Of a stretch of 64,000 nt of DNA, positions 55,266 through 56,569 are shown piece after piece. The notes below the pieces were generated by a model. It was not told where the DNA came from, did not search any database, and saw only the letters and a program-made list of their open reading frames with translations. This stretch comes from Gloeomargaritales cyanobacterium VI4D9 (GTDB lineage Bacteria > Cyanobacteriota > Cyanobacteriia > Gloeomargaritales > Gloeomargaritaceae). The translations under genes were made by a program, and so were the position numbers. The stretch spans positions 1,153,157 through 1,217,156 of the forward strand of contig OV696605.1 of the NCBI GenBank assembly GCA_927797885.1. Direction: 5' to 3'. How positions within the stretch are numbered: position 1 is the first letter of the stretch; each line of letters starts with the position of its first letter.

Positions 55266-55297
55266 AACTGGCAAAACAATTGCAGATTATTTATATT

Positions 55298-56569
55298 ATG
55301 GGAAAATTATTGTCCCCAAAAATGATGCCCTTCCTTTTGGGTCTATTGGTGGGGCTGGTTGCCCTCTGGTTGTACCGCCGCTACCAACGGCGTTCCCTAA
55401 CTTATCGGAAAAAACGTCTATCCCAAGCGCAAGAAAATTATGACGAGCTTGACCAACGACATAAGCAGATTACCCAAGAGTATCAAAAAATACAGCAACA
55501 ATTGCGGGAATTAGAACGAGAAAATCAACACCTGCACCAGCAATTAGCTAACCTACAGCAGGAGAATGCAGTTTTAATCCAGCAACAGACTGAATCCATT
55601 CAGGAACAATTACAGGAATTAGAACGAGAAAATCAACACCTGCACCAGCAATTAGCTAACCTACATCAGGAGAATGCAGTTTTAATCCAACAACAGACTG
55701 AATCCATCCAGGAACAATTACAGGAATTAGAACGAGAAAATCAACACCTGCACCAGCAATTAGCTAACCTACATCAGGAGAATGCAGTTTTAATCCAACA
55801 ACAGACTGAATCCATCCAGGAACAATTACAGGAATTAGAACGAGAAAATCAACACCTGCACCAGCAATTAGCTAACCTACATCAGGAAAATACTGCTTTA
55901 CTTGAACAGCAGACAGAACCTACGCAAACCCATCAGGAAAAAGCACAAGAATTACAACAACAAATAGCAAAATTACAACAAGAGAATCAAACCCTAACAT
56001 CATTTTGTGACTATTTTGAAAAATGCGCTATTTCCACCGAAGAAAGACATATCTCACTTCAAGAACAATACGATTCACTCCAGCAAGCGTATCTTCAGTT
56101 GCAAGCCCAGTTGAATCATAGTAGATATAACAATTACACCACTTCAGCACCTACACCCGGAACCAATAACCGCCATGCCATCACGTTTTATAGCAATGAA
56201 ACTGACTTTTACCAGGATGAAACTTATGAATTAATGTTGCGTCTCATCGAGAAAGAATTGAATCGTCTCCCTAATAACTGTTACAAACGCCGCCGTGATT
56301 TATTAAGATCGCTTTTAGAGTGTAACCCTTCCCAGGGGCATTCCCATCAAATCCGCACCCAAATCAAAGAGTTATTCTCTGATTATAAGGGCATGACGAG
56401 ACGCTTGGAAACAAGACTTAAGCAACTCGGTTTTTCTCTTACTGAAGGAAATCACTATAAAATTACTTGGCAAGATGATAATCGGTACACATTTTCTTTT
56501 GCTAAAACCCCCAGTGACTACCGAGCGGATAACAACATTGCCCGTGACCTGATTCATCTATTATTTTAA
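55298..56569 (+). CDS. Membrane-anchored coiled-coil protein with tandem 36-aa repeats
   Basis: A 423-residue protein. One N-terminal membrane helix (MMPFLLGLLVGLVALWLY) is followed by a basic stretch. Four tandem 36-residue repeats, almost identical in DNA, then form a long Gln/Glu coiled coil (about residues 67-210). After a low-complexity linker, a C-terminal domain of about 130 residues ends with HYKITWQDDNRYTFSFAKTP and SDYRADNNIARDL, recalling HicA-like double-stranded RNA-binding folds. Base composition is more AT-rich than its neighbours. I do not recognise the family. The next gene follows 6 bp later. Confidence 0.65.
   Translation: MGKLLSPKMMPFLLGLLVGLVALWLYRRYQRRSLTYRKKRLSQAQENYDELDQRHKQITQEYQKIQQQLRELERENQHLHQQLANLQQENAVLIQQQTESIQEQLQELERENQHLHQQLANLHQENAVLIQQQTESIQEQLQELERENQHLHQQLANLHQENAVLIQQQTESIQEQLQELERENQHLHQQLANLHQENTALLEQQTEPTQTHQEKAQELQQQIAKLQQENQTLTSFCDYFEKCAISTEERHISLQEQYDSLQQAYLQLQAQLNHSRYNNYTTSAPTPGTNNRHAITFYSNETDFYQDETYELMLRLIEKELNRLPNNCYKRRRDLLRSLLECNPSQGHSHQIRTQIKELFSDYKGMTRRLETRLKQLGFSLTEGNHYKITWQDDNRYTFSFAKTPSDYRADNNIARDLIHLLF
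55496..55927 (+). repeat. Four in-frame 108-bp tandem repeats
   Basis: Units start at 55496, 55604, 55712 and 55820, each coding for about ELERENQHLHQQLANL plus a 20-residue tail. Units 2 and 3 are nearly identical at nucleotide level; units 1 and 4 diverge at their outer ends. The near-identity points to recent unequal crossing-over or slippage, and copy number may vary among strains. Confidence 0.92.

Follow-up and report, generated by a model that had tools for sequence, protein, structure and literature searches.

The window analysed here, a 64,000-nucleotide stretch of the genome of Gloeomargaritales cyanobacterium VI4D9, contains a gene for a 423-residue protein in which an N-terminal membrane helix, a coiled-coil stalk with 108-bp repeats, a helical part, and a HicA-like domain follow one another. 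We propose that this single protein is a membrane-tethered effector that would bind and probably cleave RNA, that is regulated through its stalk, and that possibly acts against phages. Judged from its sequence and from structural models, the case for this proposal is evenly balanced.

Gene and domain organisation

The open reading frame at positions 55298–56569 of the forward strand is coding, and its 423 residues are counted from an ATG; a TTG is located in frame at 55280. The gene is AT-rich compared with its flanking genes, as the earlier note had stated. Its GC content is 40.5%, versus 52.4% for the window and 63.6%, 51.5%, and 54.7% for the flanking genes encoding DUF1995, DUF6679, and YjeF_N, respectively. 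The immediate neighbours are the DUF1995 and YjeF_N genes, and no HicB gene adjoins it. The Rfam search found no RNA, no terminator-like site was found, and promoter-like matches did not exceed the level obtained with shuffles. The gene contains the following features:

55298..56569, + strand: whole gene, 423 aa; transmembrane helix, coiled coil, helical part, HicA-like domain
55319..55375, + strand: N-terminal transmembrane helix, aa 8–26; mean hydropathy 1.84, charge +1 before and +8 after
55376..55417, + strand: basic juxtamembrane patch RRYQRRSLTYRKKR, aa 27–40; from sequence and charge count
55418..56122, + strand: coiled-coil stalk, aa ~41–275; from sequence, coiled-coil profile matches, and hydrophobic period
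55493..55600, + strand: 108-bp unit 1; unit comparison
55601..55708, + strand: 108-bp unit 2, with no base different from unit 3; unit comparison
55709..55816, + strand: 108-bp unit 3, with no base different from unit 2; unit comparison
55817..55924, + strand: 108-bp unit 4; best match is unit 2 of the sister species, 5 differences
56123..56173, + strand: Ser/Thr/Pro/Asn-rich linker before the head, aa ~276–292; from sequence, both models starting with low pLDDT
56213..56380, + strand: helical part of three helices, aa 306–361; AlphaFold model
56393..56566, + strand: HicA-like α-β-β-β-α domain, aa 366–423; models, profile matches, and conservation
56453..56455, + strand: His386 codon, corresponding to the catalytic histidine in the GSH motif of HicA; profile alignment and family conservation

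Predicted HicA-like fold of the C-terminal head

The conserved positions of the protein family are located in the C-terminal head, a domain of about 130 residues, and none of them in the stalk. They include E301, D303, Y305, E308, R331, and N343 in the helical part, and the invariant residues K388, D394, R396, Y397, and D407. Position 386 is occupied by histidine in 15 of 17 relatives and by asparagine in the other two.

The structure of the head was predicted with AlphaFold in two runs, for which the inputs were 6 and 14 sequences. Both models contain three helices followed by an α-β-β-β-α arrangement, with pLDDT values of about 75–85 in the HicA part, and the pTM of the whole domain reached only 0.44–0.45. 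The top Foldseek match of both models among 350,542 PDB chains was HicA of S. pneumoniae (5YRZ_B), with TM-scores by target of 0.45 and 0.56, probabilities of 0.60 and 0.66, and E-values of 0.39–0.56, which are not significant. The matches also included chain 6g26_F of B. pseudomallei HicAB and the small Thermus protein 1whz. The head is matched by the PADLOC profile 'HicA-like' (E 1.3e-6) and by the phage family PHROG 2053 (E 1.4e-10). Comparison of a profile of the family and eight phage homologues with 33 canonical cyanobacterial HicAs gave a score of 26.5, versus a maximum of 13.9 and a mean of 8.6 in 200 column shuffles; His386 was aligned with the histidine of the HicA GSH motif. The clear score depends on the phage sequences, since the family profile without them scored 19.6 against a shuffle maximum of 19.5, and comparisons using only five HicAs were too weak. 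The HicA-like C-terminus that the earlier note had recognised is thus supported independently by PADLOC, PHROG 2053, the structure predictions, and the profile comparison.

Simple membership of the Pfam HicA family is ruled out, because the C-terminal domain did not match HicA_toxin (PF07927) at E ≤ 1; five canonical HicAs encoded elsewhere in the same genome do match it. Searches of the head against NCBIfam and PDB sequences gave no meaningful match. Based on the models and alignments, we assign the head to the HicA superfamily as a divergent branch, extended by the helical part. The asparagine at the catalytic-histidine position of two relatives indicates that some members of the family may bind RNA without cutting it. 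The number of canonical HicAs differs strongly within the genus: at a threshold of E 1e-8, four each were counted in genomes G000 and G003, ten in G004, where the window gene is absent from the corresponding place, and none in G002.

Combinations of heads and carriers, and the question of defence

The HicA-like head is joined to more than one kind of carrier. Proteins from Klebsiella (WP_064169724.1) and Skermanella (WP_202684737.1) have the N-terminus of HEC-07, followed by a coiled coil and a HicA-like head. The Klebsiella head-bearing proteins are encoded on small ColRNAI plasmids, and the Skermanella one is also plasmid-borne. Three cyanobacterial proteins (L112, L113, and L114 from genomes G249, G263, and G041) have a transmembrane helix and a coiled coil followed by a HEC-07/NsnC C-terminal part; they form an unnamed sister design with the C-terminal motif IGHCGKHL. 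Including the HEC-07 profile itself as the fourth, all combinations of the two carriers and two heads occur. This points to equivalent roles of the heads, and the HicA-like and HEC-07/NsnC heads may be interchangeable effectors. Five viral contigs (L069, L072, L089, L091, and L068) encode diverse small phage proteins with the motif KTPSDWRA..N, some of them fused to longer C-terminal regions, which constitute an unnamed HicA-like phage group. Scans of IMG/VR with three queries found no relative.

PADLOC includes HEC-07 and NsnC among its known and candidate defence proteins, which is the main argument for a role in defence, and an antiphage function would be the most likely purpose of the protein. 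The main argument against it is provided by the neighbourhoods of the relatives, which contain housekeeping genes without a common partner. Among 128 neighbour proteins scanned with PADLOC, there were only generic matches (kinases, QueC, and ATPases) and no defence island, and a defence-island setting was rejected on this ground. The idea of a defence system in the earlier note may still hold through the domain relatives, and the genomic surroundings of the gene and its relatives do not speak for it. A literature search on HEC-07 and Menshen NsnC gave nothing.

The family was matched in 18 of 390 cyanobacterial genomes in a class-level survey at E 0.01, and in 5 of 386 in a phylum-level survey at 1e-6; other phyla were sampled solely through plasmids and phages. 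Carriers include Leptolyngbyaceae RU_5_1, Lyngbya confervoides, Phormidium tenue, and Nodosilinea nodulosa. Weak matches with E-values of 0.009–0.09 (L007–L010 and L013) were excluded, two of them (L007 and L013) being located in unrelated proteins or stop-bearing frames. The distribution of the family is patchy, at 1–5% of cyanobacterial genomes, which is typical of accessory genes.

Housekeeping surroundings, in the window as in the relatives, are also consistent with a housekeeping factor that localises or processes RNA, keeps transcripts near the membrane, and has no role in defence. RNase Y is composed of a membrane helix, a long coiled coil, and an RNA-binding domain, and the window protein has the same order of parts; purifying selection (dN/dS 0.24) fits such a factor as well. 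Nevertheless, we regard this explanation as unlikely. Carriage by about 1–5% of the sampled cyanobacterial genomes and absence from the corresponding locus of congener G004 indicate that the function is not core, and the head also occurs in phages and is encoded by mobilisable plasmids of small size.

Growth of the coiled-coil stalk in whole units

TRF identified an array at 55493–55891 with a period of 108, 3.7 copies, 97% matches, and a score of 749, which is by a wide margin the strongest tandem repeat in the window. Four tandem units are present, and the two that had been described as almost identical, units 2 and 3, are fully identical (0 of 108 bases differ); unit 1 differs from them in 6 bases and unit 4 in 13. 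The hydrophobic period is 3.58 residues over the stalk and 3.60 over the four units. The core positions of a unit (L4, L7, N11, L14, L18, L21, N25, L28, Q32, and I36) correspond to five heptads and one skip residue. It is strongly supported that each 36-residue unit contains one skip residue and that the coiled coil grew by tandem duplication. In leucine zippers, asparagine at 'a' positions is characteristic of parallel dimers, and the asparagines at the core 'a' positions of the stalk therefore suggest a parallel dimer.

The orthologue in the sister species (L002 in G003) is located at the same place, with DUF1995 on one side and YjeF_N on the other, and has two units instead of four. The stalks differ by exactly 2 × 36 residues (72 aa), so that both the extendable nature of the coiled coil and the recent change of its length, as suggested previously, are borne out. 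Unit 1 of the sister species is most similar to unit 1 of the window, and its unit 2 to unit 4 of the window (5 differences). In the simplest history, the identical units 2 and 3 would have been gained in the lineage of the window. The 108-bp array is absent from the more distant congeners G001 and G002. The coil of a relative in genome G241 (L038:1006–1305) contains a 63-bp tandem array of 4.8 copies that are 94% alike, and growth of the stalk by tandem units has therefore occurred at least twice.

Changes of stalk length in whole units could also belong to a structural inner-membrane tether or spacer, with a C-terminal domain that binds protein or DNA and is not an enzyme. Among the Pfam matches of the stalk are the coiled-coil profiles of ZapB, KASH, and similar scaffold proteins, and the histidine at the catalytic position is replaced in two members of the family. 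We consider a purely structural function improbable, since the conservation sits in the head and not in the stalk, and the relatives of the head are HicA and a phage family of stand-alone proteins.

Orientation in the membrane

The membrane helix that the earlier note had proposed is the sole one predicted, at residues 8–26, with a mean Kyte–Doolittle hydropathy of 1.84. Its flanks carry charges of +1 on the N-terminal side and +8 on the stalk side. All nine further full-length relatives with a single transmembrane segment that were tabulated have an N-terminal helix whose stalk side is the more positive one. According to the positive-inside rule, the stalk and head would be cytoplasmic (N-out/C-in). 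The prediction that the stalk and tip of the window protein face the cytoplasm, and that it is not a surface protein, is strongly supported. The charge topology led us to reject a surface adhesin or exposed sensor, and the cell-surface option considered previously is unlikely. A larger form of the protein (L108 in G034) has two predicted membrane helices about 130 residues apart, followed by the coil.

Fate of the gene among congeners

Intact copies of the gene are present in G000 and G003. Genome G001 contains two tandem copies, one broken by a frameshift and the other by an in-frame TAA; the latter is a second paralogue (L003:1889–2932) located between the first copy and the argininosuccinate synthase gene. 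The copy in G002 has a frameshift close to its 3' end, that in G006 is truncated by the end of the contig, and in G004 the gene is absent from the same place. Comparison of the two intact copies (window versus G003) yielded a dN/dS of 0.22–0.24 after the repeats and 0.24 in the C-terminal domain, and selection between them is purifying. That the gene is a decaying remnant of a past transfer with little present use in the genus, as its AT-richness, the broken copies in G001 and G002, and the absence from G004 might indicate, is still less probable than a structural tether, because intact copies with in-frame repeats and low dN/dS persist in G000 and G003, and the breaks, seen in draft assemblies, may have arisen through errors of assembly.

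The synonymous divergence from the sister species is 0.09 in the C-terminal part of the gene, versus about 0.21 in both neighbours, and may reflect a recent exchange. A 118-bp direct repeat of 2.0 copies, 96% alike, begins directly after the YjeF_N gene of the sister species (L002:2717–2952).

Proposed mechanism

Based on these observations, a mode of action can be proposed for the membrane-tethered RNA effector. The predicted HicA fold would provide the C-terminus with a head that binds double-stranded RNA. The stalk, presumably a parallel dimer, would measure about 35 nm in all, at about 0.15 nm per residue and 5.3 nm per repeat unit, and keep two HicA-like heads near the membrane, inside the cell. 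A signal, either a disturbance of the membrane or an invader, may be relayed by the stalk or anchor and release the heads onto RNA for binding and cutting. The control would thus lie in the same chain and not in a HicB antitoxin. The rare and scattered family may therefore combine a phage sensor and an RNA effector in one protein.

We also raise, as a doubtful extension, a modular immune design without antitoxin, in which an input part, an adjustable coiled-coil stalk, and an exchangeable head loosed on RNA upon infection are combined. The input part could be one membrane helix, two helices with an outside loop, or the HEC-07 N-terminus, and the head could be of the HicA-like or HEC-07/NsnC type. 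If the proposed mechanism is correct, HicA-type RNA effectors can do without an antitoxin and be held at the membrane by a stalk whose length evolves in whole repeat units. One unnamed domain links phage, plasmid, and chromosomal proteins, and the possible exchange between two effector heads of the defence type, carried by the same kind of stalk and anchor, offers a testable case.

Comparison with known systems

The HicA toxin (PF07927) has the α-β-β-β-α (dsRBD-like) fold that is predicted for the window head, and the catalytic histidine of its GSH motif is matched by H386. In contrast to HicA, the window protein has neither a Pfam match nor an adjoining HicB, has the motif KTPSDxR..N where HicA has the GTL helix start, and possesses the extra helical part and the transmembrane-coiled-coil carrier. 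Phage proteins of PHROG 2053 and PHROG 2089 (e.g. PaMx74_54) have the HicA-like half in common with the window head (profile match E 6e-16), as well as the motif H-K...[AS]K[TS]P[SG]DxRA..N, but are stand-alone proteins of about 70 residues without anchor or stalk.

HEC-07 shares parts with relatives of the window protein: its N-terminus is joined to the window-type head in Klebsiella and Skermanella, and the HEC-07/NsnC C-terminus to the transmembrane-coiled-coil carrier in cyanobacteria. The window protein has neither half and does not match the HEC-07 profile, whereas the Klebsiella and Skermanella relatives do. The likeness to RNase Y is confined to the order of parts and is a comparison of possible working only; neither its KH nor its HD domain appears among the best 25 of the 30 Pfam hits obtained with the full-length protein, or among any of the Pfam hits of the C-terminal domain alone.

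The earlier note had not recognised the layout of the protein. It is correct that no library has such a family; however, the arrangement of transmembrane helix, coiled coil, and terminal domain recurs in other cyanobacteria, and a published design, the class 14 SMC-HicA fusion (Gerdes 2024, PMC10865869), has a coiled coil with HicA at its end. The window protein matches the NCBIfam SMC profile only at coiled-coil positions (258–494 of 1181), far below the cut-off, and no SMC ATPase was found. The class 14 fusion, compared by domain order, has the same succession of a coiled coil and a C-terminal HicA domain and is the nearest published design, from which the window protein differs in having a membrane anchor in place of the SMC ATPase.
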